Positions 20,151-38,925 of a DNA stretch of 46,992 bases are shown one piece after another (position 1 is the stretch's first letter; each line of letters begins with the position of its first letter). The stretch is from Solirubrobacterales bacterium (GTDB lineage: Bacteria; Actinomycetota; Thermoleophilia; Solirubrobacterales; Solirubrobacteraceae): NCBI GenBank assembly GCA_019240115.1, contig JAFAYV010000064.1:1-46992 (forward strand). The letters run 5' to 3'. The notes below the pieces were generated by a model. The model was not told the DNA's origin and made no database searches. It was given only the letters and a program-made list of their open reading frames with translations. A program made the translations under genes and the position numbers.

Positions 20151-20363
20151 TCAGCGCCAGGGCTCGACGGGCGCGGGCTGGCGCGTGACGCCCTCGTGCA
20201 GCGCCGCCCGCTGCCACGGACTCGGTGCCCACCCGGCCGCCGGCGGCGGCGCGGGCACCGGAGCGGTGTCGCGCATGAAACGCTCGAGCGCCGCGACGAC
20301 CGCCGCCGCCTCCTCGGGCGAGGCGTCGGGGGCGGTGATCGACAGCTTCGGGCGCCGGTTCAT
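20151..20363 (-). CDS. Small acyl-CoA carboxylase epsilon-like subunit
   Basis: A 70-residue protein with the layout of actinobacterial acyl-CoA carboxylase epsilon subunits: a short N-terminal strand (KLSITAPDASPEEAAAVVAALER), a proline/alanine-rich linker and a C-terminal segment with PSPWQRAAL. These peptides bind the beta carboxyltransferase and modulate it. The beta gene (21854-23425) is 1.5 kb away on the same strand, separated by a gene on the other strand. ATG 20363 is 10 nt after TACCCT, which overlaps the divergent promoter of the next gene. The family call rests on pattern and context because the protein is so short. Confidence 0.7.
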   Translation of the reverse strand: MNRRPKLSITAPDASPEEAAAVVAALERFMRDTAPVPAPPPAAGWAPSPWQRAALHEGVTRQPAPVEPWR

Positions 20364-20373
20364 GCGTGCGCCG

Positions 20374-20379
20374 AGGGTA
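20374..20379 (-). promoter_or_regulatory. -10 box TACCCT for the epsilon-like gene
   Basis: Minus-strand TACCCT is separated by 10 nt from ATG 20363. Its TA pair (20378-20379) is shared with the opposite -10 box TATCGT. Confidence 0.45.
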
Positions 20380-20383
20380 TCGT
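20378..20383 (+). promoter_or_regulatory. -10 box TATCGT driving a leaderless micro-ORF
   Basis: TATCGT at 20378-20383 is followed by 8 nt and a GTG at 20392 that opens a nine-codon ORF. Confidence 0.45.
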
Positions 20384-20391
20384 CCGCGGCC

Positions 20392-20421
20392 GTGATCGAG
20401 TCTCCCCTTCCCGCCGCATGA
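20392..20421 (+). CDS. Putative leaderless leader peptide VIESPLPAA, coupled to the next gene
   Basis: GTG 20392 begins nine codons (VIESPLPAA, initiator Val read as Met) and stops at TGA 20419-20421. The stop overlaps ATG 20418 of the following gene as ATGA. The GTG is 8 nt after TATCGT, the same geometry as leaderless genes in this window. A leaderless mRNA would let ribosomes load here and re-initiate on the main gene, which has no Shine-Dalgarno of its own. Translation of the peptide is a prediction. Confidence 0.4.
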   Translation: MIESPLPAA

Positions 20422-21362
20422 CCCCGCTGCCCGTCCTCGGGCACTCGGCCGTGCTGGCCGCGGTCTCGCCCGCCGAGGCGATCGACCGGGTCGCCGACGC
20501 GTTTCGCCGCCACCACGCGGGCGAGTGGACGATGCCCGCCAAGGTCTATCTGCAGAGCCCGCCGTTCGGCGACTTCCGCGCCATGCCGGCGCGTGGCGGC
20601 GGCCTCGCCCTGCTCAAGTGGATCACCTCCTTCCCGTCCAACCCCGCGCGCGGGCTCCCGACCGTCCAGGGGCTCGTCTGCCTCTCCGACGCGGAGACGG
20701 GGACGCCGCTCATGCTCCTCGACGCTCGCTCGGTGACCGCGCTGCGCACCGGCGCCGTCGCCGCCGTCGCCACCCGAGCGTTCGCCCCCGCCGACGCCGA
20801 GTCGGTCGGGATCGTCGGCTGCGGTCTGCACGGAATGTGGGCCGCCCGGTGCCTGCGCGCCGCCGGCTACCGCGGCGGGATCGCCTGCGACGTGCGCGCG
20901 CGGGCCGCCACCGACGTCGCCGCCGAGCTCGAGGCGTCGGTTGGCGACCGCGCGCAGGCGCTCGCCTGCGACGTCGTCTGCTGCGTCACCCCCGGAACCG
21001 AGCCGGTCGTCGAGCACGCCGACCTGCACCCGGGGCTGCACCTCAACATGCTCGGCGCCGACGGCCCCGGCAAGGCCGAGGCGAGCGTCGACGCGGTCGC
21101 CGCCTGTCGGCTGTTCTGCGACGAGTGGGAGCAGGCCGTCCACGGCGGCGAGCTGACCGGCGCGGTGACCGCCGGCCGCGTGCAGCGCGACCAGGTCGGC
21201 GAGCTTGGGGCGGTGCTCGACGGCGCCCCCGGTCGGGTCAACCCCGAGGAGGTCACGATGTTCGACTCGACCGGCCTCGCGATCCAGGATCTTGCGGTGG
21301 CCGCGGCCGCTTACGAGGCGTGGCGGCTTGGCGCTGTGGCGGCCCAGACGGTGTCGCTGTAG
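20418..21362 (+). CDS. Ornithine cyclodeaminase / mu-crystallin family protein
   Basis: A 314-residue NAD(P)-binding protein of the OCD/mu-crystallin family, whose members include ornithine cyclodeaminase, alanine dehydrogenase and imine reductases. VGIVGCGLHGMWAARCLRA is the Rossmann nucleotide loop; MPAKVYLQSPPFGDFRAMPA and SVTALRTGAVAAVATR are the conserved substrate-domain segments; HLNMLGADGPGKAEA and FDSTGLAIQDLAVA are near the C-terminus. The substrate is not predictable. ATG 20418 overlaps the stop of a putative leader peptide; the frame is open further upstream, but that part overlaps the divergent promoter and the epsilon-like gene. Confidence 0.88.
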   Translation: MTPLPVLGHSAVLAAVSPAEAIDRVADAFRRHHAGEWTMPAKVYLQSPPFGDFRAMPARGGGLALLKWITSFPSNPARGLPTVQGLVCLSDAETGTPLMLLDARSVTALRTGAVAAVATRAFAPADAESVGIVGCGLHGMWAARCLRAAGYRGGIACDVRARAATDVAAELEASVGDRAQALACDVVCCVTPGTEPVVEHADLHPGLHLNMLGADGPGKAEASVDAVAACRLFCDEWEQAVHGGELTGAVTAGRVQRDQVGELGAVLDGAPGRVNPEEVTMFDSTGLAIQDLAVAAAAYEAWRLGAVAAQTVSL

Positions 21363-21385
21363 TGGTTGTTCGCATGCGGGCTGAG

Positions 21386-21476
21386 ACGGGCGCCCGTTCG
21401 GCGCAGCGCGTTATGTGGGGGCGCGTGGGGGCGTTGGGGCGCGAGCGAACACAAGCTGCGCCGAACGGGGCCCCGT
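21386..21476. repeat. 22-bp inverted arms, each with an internal 12-bp palindrome
   Basis: The left arm at 21386-21407 is the palindrome ACGGGCGCCCGT followed by TCGGCGCAGC. The right arm at 21455-21476 is GCTGCGCCGA followed by the palindrome ACGGGGCCCCGT. The arms are inverted copies with two mismatches in the centre of the palindrome, and 47 bp lie between them. The structure resembles a REP doublet or a tiny element with terminal inverted repeats; no target duplication was recognised. Confidence 0.85.
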
Positions 21477-21574
21477 CCAGCCCGCCGCGCATCGGGCAAC
21501 GAGACGTCTGGGGCACGGGACGTGGTGGCGACCGCCAGCCGCGTCGGCGGCCGGGCCATGGCCGCTCGTCGCCT

Positions 21575-21853: not shown

Positions 21854-23425
21854 TCAGAGCGGGATGTTGCCGTGCTTGCGCCGGGGGCCGGGGTCGCGCT
21901 TGGTCTGCAGCGTGTGCAGGGCGGTGATGACCGTGGGGCGGGTGTCGGAGGGGACGATGACGTCGTCGAGGTAGCCGCGCTCGGCGGCGACGTAGGGACT
22001 GGCGAAATGGGCCTTGTAGTCCTCGATCAGCGTCGCGCGGCGGGAGTCGGGCGTCGGGGAGGCCGCGATGTCGCGGCGGTAGATGATGTTGACCGCGCCG
22101 TCGGGGCCCATGACGGCGACCTCGGCGCTCGGCCACGCGAAGTTGAAGTCGGCGGCGAGGTGCTTGGAGCCCATGACGTCGTAGGCGCCGCCGTAGGCCT
22201 TGCGGGTGATGATCGTGATCTTCGGCACGGTCGCCTCGGCGTAGGCGTACAGGAGCTTGGCGCCGTGGCGGATGATCCCGCCCCATTCCTGGGTGGTGCC
22301 GGGGAGGAAGCCCGGGACGTCGCAGAAGGTGAGGATCGGGATGTTGAACGCGTCGCAGGTCCGGATGAAGCGCGCCGCCTTCTCCGAGGACTCGATGTCG
22401 AGCACGCCGGCGAGCTGCGCCGGCTGGTTGCCGACCACCCCGATGGAGAAGCCGTCGAGGCGGGCGAAGCCGACCACGATGTTGCGCGCGTAGTGCTCGT
22501 GGACCTCGAGGAACTCGCCGTCGTCGACGATGCGGCGGATGACCTCGCGCATGTCGTAGGGCTTGTTCGGGCTGTCGGGGACGATCGTGTCGAGCTCGGG
22601 ATCGCGTCGCTGCGAGTCGTCGGTGGTCATGACCCGAGGCGGGATCTCAAGGTTGTTCTGCGGCAGGTAGGAGAGCAGATAGCGCGCGTCCTGCAGGCAC
22701 CCGTCCTCGTCGTCGGCGGCGAAGTGGGCGACGCCCGACCTCGAGTTGTGCGACATCGCGCCGCCGAGGTCCTCAAAGCCGACCTCCTCGCCGGTGACCG
22801 TCCTGATCACGTCGGGTCCCGTGATGAACATGTGGGAGGTCTCCTTGACCATGAAGATGAAGTCGGTGATCGCCGGCGAGTAGACCGCGCCGCCCGCGCA
22901 GGGGCCCATCACGAGGCTGATCTGCGGGATGACGCCGCTGCAGCGCACGTTGCGCAGGAAGACGTCGCCGTAGGCGCCGAGGGAGACGACCCCCTCCTGG
23001 ATCCGTGCGCCGCCCGAGTCGTTGATGCCGATCACGGGGCAGCCGATCCTGGCCGCGAGATCCATGATCTTGCACATCTTCTCGGCCATCACCTCGCCGA
23101 GCGAGCCGCCGAACACCGTGAAGTCCTGGCTGAAGACGCACACGCGGCGGCCGTCGATCGTCCCGTGGCCGGTGACGACCGCGTCGCCCCAGGGACGGTT
23201 GCGCTGCATGTCGAACTCGAGCGTGCGGTGGCGGACGAACGCGTCGAGCTCCTGGAAGGAGCCGGGGTCCAGGAGCTTGGCGATCCGCTCGCGGGCGGTC
23301 AGCTTGCCCTTCTCGTGCTGCTTGTCAACGGCGGCCTGGCCGGCGTTGTGGACCGCCTCCTCGCGCAGCTCCTGCAGCCGCGCGAGCTTGTCCTCGGAGG
23401 TCTCGGGAGCGTGGTCGCGCGTCAT
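21854..23425 (-). CDS. Acyl-CoA (propionyl/acetyl) carboxylase beta subunit, carboxyltransferase
   Basis: A 523-residue carboxyltransferase with N- and C-terminal crotonase-like halves. [22 protein letters not shown] is the N-terminal signature; [20 protein letters not shown] and [17 protein letters not shown] form the first oxyanion region; [23 protein letters not shown] and [14 protein letters not shown] form the second. It transfers the carboxyl group from biotin on the alpha subunit to acetyl- or propionyl-CoA. With a mutase and SucCD in the window, propionyl-CoA is a natural substrate, but specificity was not derived residue by residue. ATG 23425 is 9 nt after TAGACT. Confidence 0.95.
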
Positions 23426-23516: not shown

Positions 23517-24185
23517 TCAGGCGCGCGAGTACGGCCGGTGGTGGGCCTGGCCGAGGCTGTCCAGCGCCTGGCTGAGCAGCTCCAGGGTCTCGTCGTCGAC
23601 GGGCTCGGGCGGCGCCACCGGCGCGGGCGGCTCGGGCTCGGCGACCGGCGCGGGCAGCGGAGCCACGGCGACCGCCCGGGAGCGGCGCCGGCGCCACCGG
23701 GCGAGCACGCGCTCCCACAGCCGCCGCGCTCGCCCGCGAGGGGCCTGCGGGTCAGGGTCGGGCGCGCCCTCGTAGTCGGGGGCCTCGCGCGTTTCGGGCG
23801 CCAGCGCCTCGGGCGCCAACGCCTCGGGCGCCAGCGTCTCGGGCGCCAACGTCTCGGGCGCCAACGTCTCGGGCGCCAGCGTCTCGGGCGCCAAGGTCTC
23901 GGGGTCGCGCGCCGGCGTTCCGGGCGCCGGCGTCTCGGGCGCCGGCGGGATGTCGGTCCGGACCGCCGTCAGCACGACGCGCGTCCCCCAGCCGGCGGGC
24001 TCGAGCCGCACCGTGCCGCGCGCGGCAGCGCCCTCCCAGGCGACGGTGGACTCGGGCTCAAGGCTGGTGACGCGGATGTCCCTGAAATTGCCAAGATGAC
24101 GCGCCAGCGAGGCCGCGTCGCTGCATTCCGACCAGAGTTCGGGGGCGGACTTCAACAGGGTCCGGCTGACTTCGAGCTCTCCCAT
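23517..24185 (-). CDS. SRPBCC-like protein with a pentapeptide PETLA repeat region
   Basis: A 222-residue protein. Residues 1-80 (MGELEVSRTLLKSAPELWSE; LARHLGNFRDIRVTSLEPES; RGTVRLEPAGWGTRVVLTAV) look like a shortened SRPBCC/polyketide-cyclase fold, which usually forms a hydrophobic ligand pocket. It is followed by about eight copies of a five-residue unit (APETL/APEAL), an Arg-rich stretch (RGRARRLWERVLARWRRRRSR) and a proline-rich acidic tail ending in a short helix (DDETLELLSQALDSLGQA). The basic stretch could bind nucleic acid or membrane; that is speculation. The start is ATG 24185, with no clear ribosome site. It lies downstream of the GGDEF/HD-GYP gene (71-bp gap), possibly on its transcript. 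Confidence 0.7.
   Translation of the reverse strand: MGELEVSRTLLKSAPELWSECSDAASLARHLGNFRDIRVTSLEPESTVAWEGAAARGTVRLEPAGWGTRVVLTAVRTDIPPAPETPAPGTPARDPETLAPETLAPETLAPETLAPETLAPEALAPEALAPETREAPDYEGAPDPDPQAPRGRARRLWERVLARWRRRRSRAVAVAPLPAPVAEPEPPAPVAPPEPVDDETLELLSQALDSLGQAHHRPYSRA
23794..23898 (-). repeat. 15-bp tandem repeat encoding the PETLA region
   Basis: Seven consecutive 15-bp units (plus strand TCGGGCGCCARCGYC) run from 23794 to 23898, with more diverged units to about 23950. Units differ mostly at two positions, one of which is silent and one of which alternates Thr and Ala. The unit is a multiple of three, so copy-number change keeps the frame. Confidence 0.93.
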
Positions 24186-24256
24186 TGCGATCGATGTTCG
24201 CCCGGGCGGCGGCGACTCCTTCCCGGCGCCGGGAGTTCTGCAGTCGGGCCGCCGAC

Positions 24257-26278
24257 TCACCGTGCGGCGATCGGCGCCTCGGGGAGGGGGGTGGCCGACT
24301 CCTGCAGCGCGCTTGCCCGCGACCACGCGTCGACGGCCCCGGTGGCCAACAGCGCGCACAGCGCGTCGGTGGCGATCGGCTTGAACTGCCGGCCGGTGAG
24401 CTCGACACACCGCTCGACGGCGTCGGCGACGGAGCTCGCGGGGCTGTACACGCGCCGGGTGACGATCGCCTCGAACGCGTCGGCCAGGGCGAGCAGCGCC
24501 GCGCCGTCATCGATCTGCTCGGCGATCAGGCCGTCGGGGTAGCCGGCGCCGTCGGGTCGCTCGTGGTGACCGCGCACCCAGCCGACCTGCTGCGCCGAGA
24601 GCACGCCGTCGAGCATCTCGGCGCCGAGCAGCGCGTGGCGCTGCATCTGCGCCATCTCCTCGTCGTCCAGCGCCCCCGGCTTGAGCAGGATCGCGTCCGG
24701 GATGCCGATCTTGCCGACGTCGTGGACGAGCGCCGCCTGGTGCAGCGCGCCGATCGCCTCCGGCGACCAGCCGGCGACGGTCGCCAGCCGGGTGCAGAGC
24801 GCCGCCACGCGCTCGGAGTGACGCCGGGTGGCGGGGTGCTTGGCGTCGATCGCCCGCGCGAGCGCGGTGATGCCGACGAGCGCACTGCTGCGCTCGGGGT
24901 GCAGCGCGCGCTCGGCGGCGCTCGGCTGGCGCACGACCGCTGGGTCGAAGATGCACGAGCGCGTGCGGCCGTGCGCCTTGCTCCAGCACAGCGCACTGCC
25001 CGCCCGCTCGACGAGGCGCTCGACGCCTCCGGCGCGGTCGAGGTCGCAGATCCCCGCCGAGGCGGTGATCGACACGCCCTCGGAGTCGGCGACCGCGCTG
25101 ACGAGCGCCGCTCGTGCGCGCTCGACGATGGCCATCGTGCCGACCGCGTCGACGCCGTGCAGCAGCAGCGCGAACTCGTCGCCGCCGAGCCGGGCGAGCA
25201 CGTCGCCCTCGCCGGCCGCGAACTCGCCCAGCGTCAGCGCCACCGTGCTCAGCAGACGTTCGCCGGCGTGGTGGCCGCGCACCTCGTTGAGCAGGCGGAA
25301 GTCGTCGACGTCGAGGATCGCCAGCGAGAGCGGCCGCCCGGCCCGCCGGGCGCGCTCGATCTCCACCCGCGCGCGATCGTGGAAGGCGCGATGGTTGGCC
25401 AGTCCGGTGAGCGGATCGGTCGTCGCCTCGCGGAGCAGCTGCGCGTGGCCCTCGAGGTTGCCGATCGCCACGCCGGCGAGCTCGGAGAGCTCGCGCTGGC
25501 GTTCGGCGTCGTCGCCGAGGAACGCCCCGGGGTTCATCGACGCCGTCACCAGCGCCCCCCAGCGCTGGCCGCCGGCATCGATCGGGACCGCGAGTGACGC
25601 CTGGCAGCCCGCCCGGGCGAAGATCGGGCCGAGCGTGCCGTCGGCTGCGCTGCAGCGAACCGGTCTCCCCTCGAGGATCGCGCGGCGAAAGCCGTGTCGC
25701 GGGTCGGCGCGGTAGACGCCGGGCGCAAGCTCGAGGTCGCAGTCCGAGGTCCAGATCCCGAGCAGCTCGGCGTGCGTGCCGTCGCGGTCGCGCGCCACCG
25801 CCGTGACGCAGACCGCGAGGAGCTGGCCGAGCTCACGAGCGATCGTCGCCAACAGCTCGGCCGTCGGGGCGCTGCGGACCGCCGCTTCGGCGACGCGGCG
25901 CAACATCGTCTGGGCGTCGGCGAGGCGGGCCGCCCGCAGCTCGGCGCGCCTGTGCTCGGTGACGTCGACGAGCGACACCAGCAGGCCCTCCTCGCGGGGG
26001 CAGATGTGGACGCGGTACCAGCCGCCGACGCCGTCGACGACGTACTCGTGCTCCTCGTCGTCGCGCATGACGGCGCGGAGGTGCGGCTCGGAGTGGCTGC
26101 CGATCAGGACCGGCAGCCGGTCCCAGATCGTCTGCCCGATGTCCTCGTCGGAGATGCCGAAGCGCCGGCGGTAGTCGCCGTTGGCGTAGACGAGCCGCCA
26201 GTCGCGGTCGATGGCGGCCAGCGCGACGGGGGCGGCATCGAGCACCGCCTCGTCATCCCACCCCCGAACGCCTTGCAC
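24257..26278 (-). CDS. PAS-GAF-GGDEF-HD-GYP signalling protein
   Basis: A 673-residue cytoplasmic sensor with four domains: PAS (about 12-110), GAF (about 125-275), GGDEF (about 285-440) and HD-GYP (about 460-640). The GGDEF motif is intact at 365-369 (ARLGGDEFALLL), though the metal/guanine segment reads DVDDFRLLNEVRGHHAGE instead of the usual ND and GD, and no RxxD inhibitory site precedes it. The HD-GYP motifs are intact: HDVGKIGIPD (HD 519-520) and HHERPDGAGYPDG (571-583). It could make and hydrolyse cyclic di-GMP, or act only as phosphodiesterase. GTG 26278 is supported by TAGTGT 9 nt upstream. There is no membrane segment. Confidence 0.93.
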   Translation of the reverse strand: MQGVRGWDDEAVLDAAPVALAAIDRDWRLVYANGDYRRRFGISDEDIGQTIWDRLPVLIGSHSEPHLRAVMRDDEEHEYVVDGVGGWYRVHICPREEGLLVSLVDVTEHRRAELRAARLADAQTMLRRVAEAAVRSAPTAELLATIARELGQLLAVCVTAVARDRDGTHAELLGIWTSDCDLELAPGVYRADPRHGFRRAILEGRPVRCSAADGTLGPIFARAGCQASLAVPIDAGGQRWGALVTASMNPGAFLGDDAERQRELSELAGVAIGNLEGHAQLLREATTDPLTGLANHRAFHDRARVEIERARRAGRPLSLAILDVDDFRLLNEVRGHHAGERLLSTVALTLGEFAAGEGDVLARLGGDEFALLLHGVDAVGTMAIVERARAALVSAVADSEGVSITASAGICDLDRAGGVERLVERAGSALCWSKAHGRTRSCIFDPAVVRQPSAAERALHPERSSALVGITALARAIDAKHPATRRHSERVAALCTRLATVAGWSPEAIGALHQAALVHDVGKIGIPDAILLKPGALDDEEMAQMQRHALLGAEMLDGVLSAQQVGWVRGHHERPDGAGYPDGLIAEQIDDGAALLALADAFEAIVTRRVYSPASSVADAVERCVELTGRQFKPIATDALCALLATGAVDAWSRASALQESATPLPEAPIAAR

Positions 26279-38854: not shown

Positions 38855-38860
38855 TAAAGT
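38855..38860 (+). promoter_or_regulatory. -10 box TAAAGT driving a leaderless micro-ORF
   Basis: TAAAGT at 38855-38860 is followed by 8 nt and GTG 38869, which opens an 18-codon ORF ending at the deacetylase start. Confidence 0.45.
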
Positions 38861-38868
38861 CCGGCAGC

Positions 38869-38925
38869 GTGCCGGGTGAAGGTCAGGCGAGCATCGGGCC
38901 GTCTCGGCGATGGAGGCGTCGATGA
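38869..38925 (+). CDS. Putative leaderless leader peptide, 18 codons, coupled to the deacetylase gene
   Basis: GTG 38869 opens VPGEGQASIGPSRRWRRR and stops at TGA 38923-38925, overlapping ATG 38922 of the deacetylase as ATGA. The GTG is 8 nt after TAAAGT. The arrangement is the same as at 20392-20421. The C-terminal run of Arg and Trp codons could slow ribosomes. Translation is predicted only. Confidence 0.35.
   Translation: MPGEGQASIGPSRRWRRR

Follow-up and report, generated by a model that had tools for sequence, protein, structure and literature searches.

Comparison of 5′ ends across relatives points to a displaced leaderless start in a Solirubrobacterales genome. An insertion of about 26 nt appears to have moved the first codon of an OCD-like gene away from its promoter, so that the old GTG would now open a nine-codon micro-ORF and the gene itself would be read by reinitiation; we rate this combined reading as somewhat better than even. 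Judged from aligned sequences, the mini frame most likely arose once, as a side effect of the 26-base insertion, and not as an element conserved for control. The window (the whole 46,992-nt stretch analysed, from contig JAFAYV010000064.1) belongs to a 4.03-Mb draft genome in 99 contigs, and its closest named relatives are Solirubrobacterales/Thermoleophilia metagenome-assembled genomes (MAGs). The features on which the argument turns are as follows.

20151..20363, − strand: divergent 70-aa ORF, probable acyl-CoA carboxylase epsilon subunit (accE-like); PF13822 match below cut-off, same divergent position in 29 relatives.
20378..20383, + strand: −10 box TATCGT (TANNNT type); TANNNT 6–10 nt before the main start in 49/68 relatives, TATCGT exact in 21, genome-wide TANNNT peak.
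20392..20421, + strand: nine-codon micro-ORF, opened by the GTG from which the OCD-family gene probably once started as a leaderless gene; GTG 8 nt past the −10 box, like the main starts of relatives, and GAG as codon 3.
20401..20426 (exact borders inferred), + strand: probable insertion of about 26 nt, private to this genome, holding the new ATG; −10-to-ATG spacing and divergent start gap.
20418..21362, + strand: intact OCD/mu-crystallin-family gene, 314 aa, start ATG 20418; PF02423 match, residue 1 at the ortholog start, codon-position differences.

The OCD-like gene, its neighbours and its promoter

The product of the main gene matches the OCD/mu-crystallin family (Pfam PF02423) with 205.4 bits (E = 1.3e-60) against a gathering cut-off of 24, which places it in the family. 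Among curated NCBIfam equivalog models none reaches its cut-off, that for ornithine cyclodeaminase proper included; the top model, alanine dehydrogenase (TIGR02371), scores 217 bits against a cut-off of 409, or about half. Residue 1 aligns with the first residue of the orthologs, and differences from the nearest relative run at 0.17, 0.16 and 0.39 for codon positions 1, 2 and 3, a pattern that fits purifying selection. Being under such constraint, the gene is presumably expressed. The divergent 70-aa ORF reaches 14.8 bits against PF13822 (E = 0.046; cut-off 25), and a similar ORF keeps the same divergent position beside the OCD-like gene in 29 relatives, so that an accE-like identity is probable. 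This ORF is parted from its likely carboxyltransferase (21854–23425, −) by the opposite-strand OCD-like gene. Two further features of the window lie close by: a dispersed intergenic inverted repeat of about 65–110 nt at 21376–21488 (CGGCGCAGCGCGTT ... ACAAGCTGCGCCG), and an ORF (23517–24410, −) whose central part contains a series of near-identical LAPET/LAPEA repeats. The inverted repeat has about eight similar copies (73–81%) in the same genome (L002–L008) and no match in Rfam, and is possibly a REP-like element or a terminator family.

Upstream of the OCD-like gene, direct reading of the window bears out the letters, frame, spacing and overlap that the first-pass annotation had described. 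TATCGT (20378–20383) is followed by 8 nt (CCGCGGCC, 20384–20391) and by the micro-ORF, GTG ATC GAG TCT CCC CTT CCC GCC GCA TGA (20392–20421, +), whose TGA (20419–20421) overlaps the ATG of the main gene (20418–20420) to give ATGA at 20418–20421. As had also been claimed, no Shine–Dalgarno (SD)-like purine run lies directly 5′ of ATG 20418. The 5′ end of the gene carries no Rfam element. A programmed −1 frameshift fusing the micro-ORF with the gene was considered and dropped, because no slippery heptamer was seen by eye.

The annotation had likened the 8-nt spacing to that of leaderless genes, and the wider genome agrees. In 661 kb of the same genome (431 predicted genes, called by codon-position G+C), TANNNT peaks 6–10 nt before starts, with 79 genes carrying it at 5–9 nt against 14–19 for each of six AT-only control motifs; for GTG starts the peak lies at 7 nt. 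The box at this site is very probably real, because TATCGT itself is conserved in place at 21 orthologous 5′ ends. A transcript start at the GTG of the micro-ORF is credible, given the −10 box and its spacing. Leaderless genes led by TANNNT are typical of Actinobacteria and account for around 20% of the actinobacterial genes studied (BMC Genomics 2011, PMC3160421). The window shares their type of −10 box and their spacing and differs from them in that its putative leaderless codon now opens a micro-ORF rather than a gene.

Comparison with relatives and the origin of the spacing

Orthologs were gathered from family, genus and public genome contigs, and those with a start near residue 1 gave 69 distinct aligned 5′ ends, namely the window and 68 relatives (the row L087 was left out of one alignment, the wrong stretch having been aligned). 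In 49 of the 68, a TANNNT box, often exactly TATCGT, ends 6–10 nt before the main start, so that in these relatives the OCD gene is itself the leaderless one. All 11 same-genus orthologs with a readable start (L085–L095) have the box at 7–10 nt. About half of the other 19 relatives carry, on visual inspection, a box that is altered by one or two bases but keeps its position, and the rest are mostly distant. A spacing of 34 nt is found in the window only, and neither the micro-ORF frame nor the overlap was seen in any of the 68. The annotation had looked to conservation of the GTG, the frame and the ATGA overlap to bear out its leader; these are absent from all aligned relatives, most of which would read the main gene as leaderless from the same −10 box. 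On the aligned 5′ ends a conserved leader peptide was rejected, and the distance of the main ATG from its promoter is, by this alignment, a derived trait of one genome.

The same absence weighs on the idea, put forward in the first-pass annotation, of a control point at two Pro codons. In its full form this would be a conserved attenuating leader peptide that senses proline, or ribosome speed, and controls the OCD-like gene. Two separate CCC codons do stand at positions 5 and 7 of the nine, and some OCD-family enzymes make proline. The peptide, however, occurs in no aligned relative; proline synthesis is not indicated for a product that falls below every NCBIfam cut-off and has alanine dehydrogenase as its best model; and the overlapping ORFs leave no intervening room for terminator and antiterminator hairpins. 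Two separate Pro codons are also not the conserved codon run of an amino-acid attenuator. Beyond the presence of both codons the control point finds no support, and we regard it as next to negligible.

An insertion in the lineage of the window is the simplest account of both the spacing and the divergent gap. Since 34 nt separate box and start here against 6–10 nt in most relatives, about 26 nt were probably inserted between promoter and coding start in this lineage alone. The divergent start-to-start gap is likewise longer: 54 nt against 20–31 nt in 22 of the 29 relatives with the pair, at least 23 nt more, with starts that are crude. The GTG ATC GAG of the micro-ORF occupies the position of the relatives' start codons (GTG/ATG xxx GAG); in 27 of 59 relatives codon 3 is GAG, as in the micro-ORF. 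From this position and this third codon, we take GTG ATC GAG to be the probable former start of the OCD-like gene, now out of frame, with the insert probably following at 20401–20426.

We therefore picture an ancestral gene read from a leaderless mRNA, its first codon 6–10 nt past a TANNNT box. Some 26 nt, a length indivisible by three, would then have entered close behind the original start, probably following GTG ATC GAG, and thrown the old GTG out of frame; a new ATG inside the insert would keep the gene alive, and the old frame would run into the TGA that overlaps it. The displaced-start history is supported by the comparison with relatives, and we infer the insertion point and a duplication origin. 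For that origin the indications are suggestive only. In gapped comparisons the insert shows a weak likeness to family codons 4–12 (shuffle P 0.003–0.09 for relatives and consensus), with P = 0.7 against the window's own codons 4–12; an ungapped test of a tandem flank duplication gave P = 0.20 and 0.94 for the window's own flanks and a borderline 0.05 for the family consensus. The insert may thus be an old, decayed partial tandem duplication of codons 4–12. A search of the genome that allowed up to 3 mismatches gave no second copy, and an origin as a repeat copied from elsewhere in it was rejected.

That the window is the sole aligned sequence with a 34-nt spacing, in a draft genome of many contigs, would also suit an assembly or sequencing error that hides the usual leaderless start. 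Short-read errors do not typically take the form of a unique 26-nt insert with no second copy in the genome, however, and we consider an error very unlikely.

Translation of the main gene

If the GTG is indeed 5′-terminal, ribosomes would most likely load on it, translate nine codons, stop at the TGA and start again at the ATG that it overlaps. Leaderless initiation in mycobacteria requires an RTG at the 5′ end of the mRNA, such an RTG suffices for it, and a 5′-terminal GTG is an efficient leaderless start (PLoS Genet 2015, PMC4633059); stop/start overlaps such as ATGA support termination–reinitiation in bacteria (Nat Commun 2019, PMC6728339). The window has the overlap geometry of the latter ATGA/TGATG systems, which are ordinary gene pairs, including some with SD motifs inside the upstream gene, whereas here the upstream frame has nine codons and no SD.

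The competing view treats the GTG micro-ORF as incidental: the transcript would have a 26-nt leader with no SD, and ribosomes would start straight at ATG 20418. Such starts would not be out of place in this genome, where 212 of the 431 predicted genes (starts crude) have neither an SD nor a TANNNT at a suitable distance from any candidate start; coupled leaderless micro-ORFs are not in genome-wide excess over control motifs, and RTGA arises commonly by chance. Against it, the efficiency of 5′-terminal GTG in mycobacteria (PMC4633059) suggests that ribosomes probably load there first, and the AUG is predicted to be paired: the predicted fold places it in a stem and leaves the first 21 nt open, with a weak z of −1.7. 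With no SD and the AUG in a predicted stem, reinitiation after nine codons seems likelier than direct SD-less initiation, its main rival, which we consider rather unlikely. Of the loading and reinitiation that the first-pass annotation had proposed, the geometry of the coupling is credible, as are the promoter and a leaderless GTG, and the reinitiation step, deduced from that geometry, is plausible; what falls away is a conserved loading device, since relatives lack it.

Coupling, chance expectation and class membership

Because 26 leaves a remainder of 2 on division by 3, the old frame reads any main-frame ATG as A-TGN, which becomes a stop codon when an A follows. In simulation, when a random 26-nt insert provides a new in-frame start, RTGA coupling results in about 10% of cases, and an A comes directly after 29 of 89 leaderless-type RTG starts in this genome, which together make the coupling no striking coincidence. 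With TANNNT, leaderless-type coupled micro-ORFs precede 11 of the 431 genes, and with control motifs 4–12, so that a genome-wide strategy of this kind shows no clear enrichment and was set aside. On these figures, the ATGA-coupled micro-ORF does not stand out clearly from what chance would give. A second leaderless-type candidate lies at 38855–38925 (+) of the window (TAAAGT, 8 nt, GTG, 18 codons, TGA overlapping ATG 38922); it has GGAGG ahead of the ATG and is within chance expectation.

By form, the nine-codon frame nonetheless falls within a recognised class. RTGA-coupled leaderless small ORFs, over-represented in mycobacteria (PMC4633059), consist of a 5′-terminal RTG ORF of 5–50 codons with its TGA over the main RTG, and nine codons with ATGA fit that size and overlap. 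In mycobacteria the linkage occurs more often than expected and in some cases persists across species, whereas that of the window is confined to one genome and not enriched genome-wide; conservation of the linkage among orthologs is seen in some members of the class and is not a strict requirement, over-representation being a property of the class rather than of every member.

The case is a lineage-private rearrangement that happens to yield a member of this known class. That it records the birth of a coupled leaderless micro-ORF, in which a frameshifting insertion made a leaderless start into a mini frame and reinitiation at a new ATGA rescued the gene, we hold to be possible at somewhat less than even chances; otherwise it is a lineage-private 5′-end rearrangement of an ordinary enzyme gene. 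If the former is true, no selection for regulation is needed to produce RTGA-coupled leaderless small ORFs, since displaced leaderless starts can leave them behind as relics, and caution would be due before every such ORF is taken for a control element.
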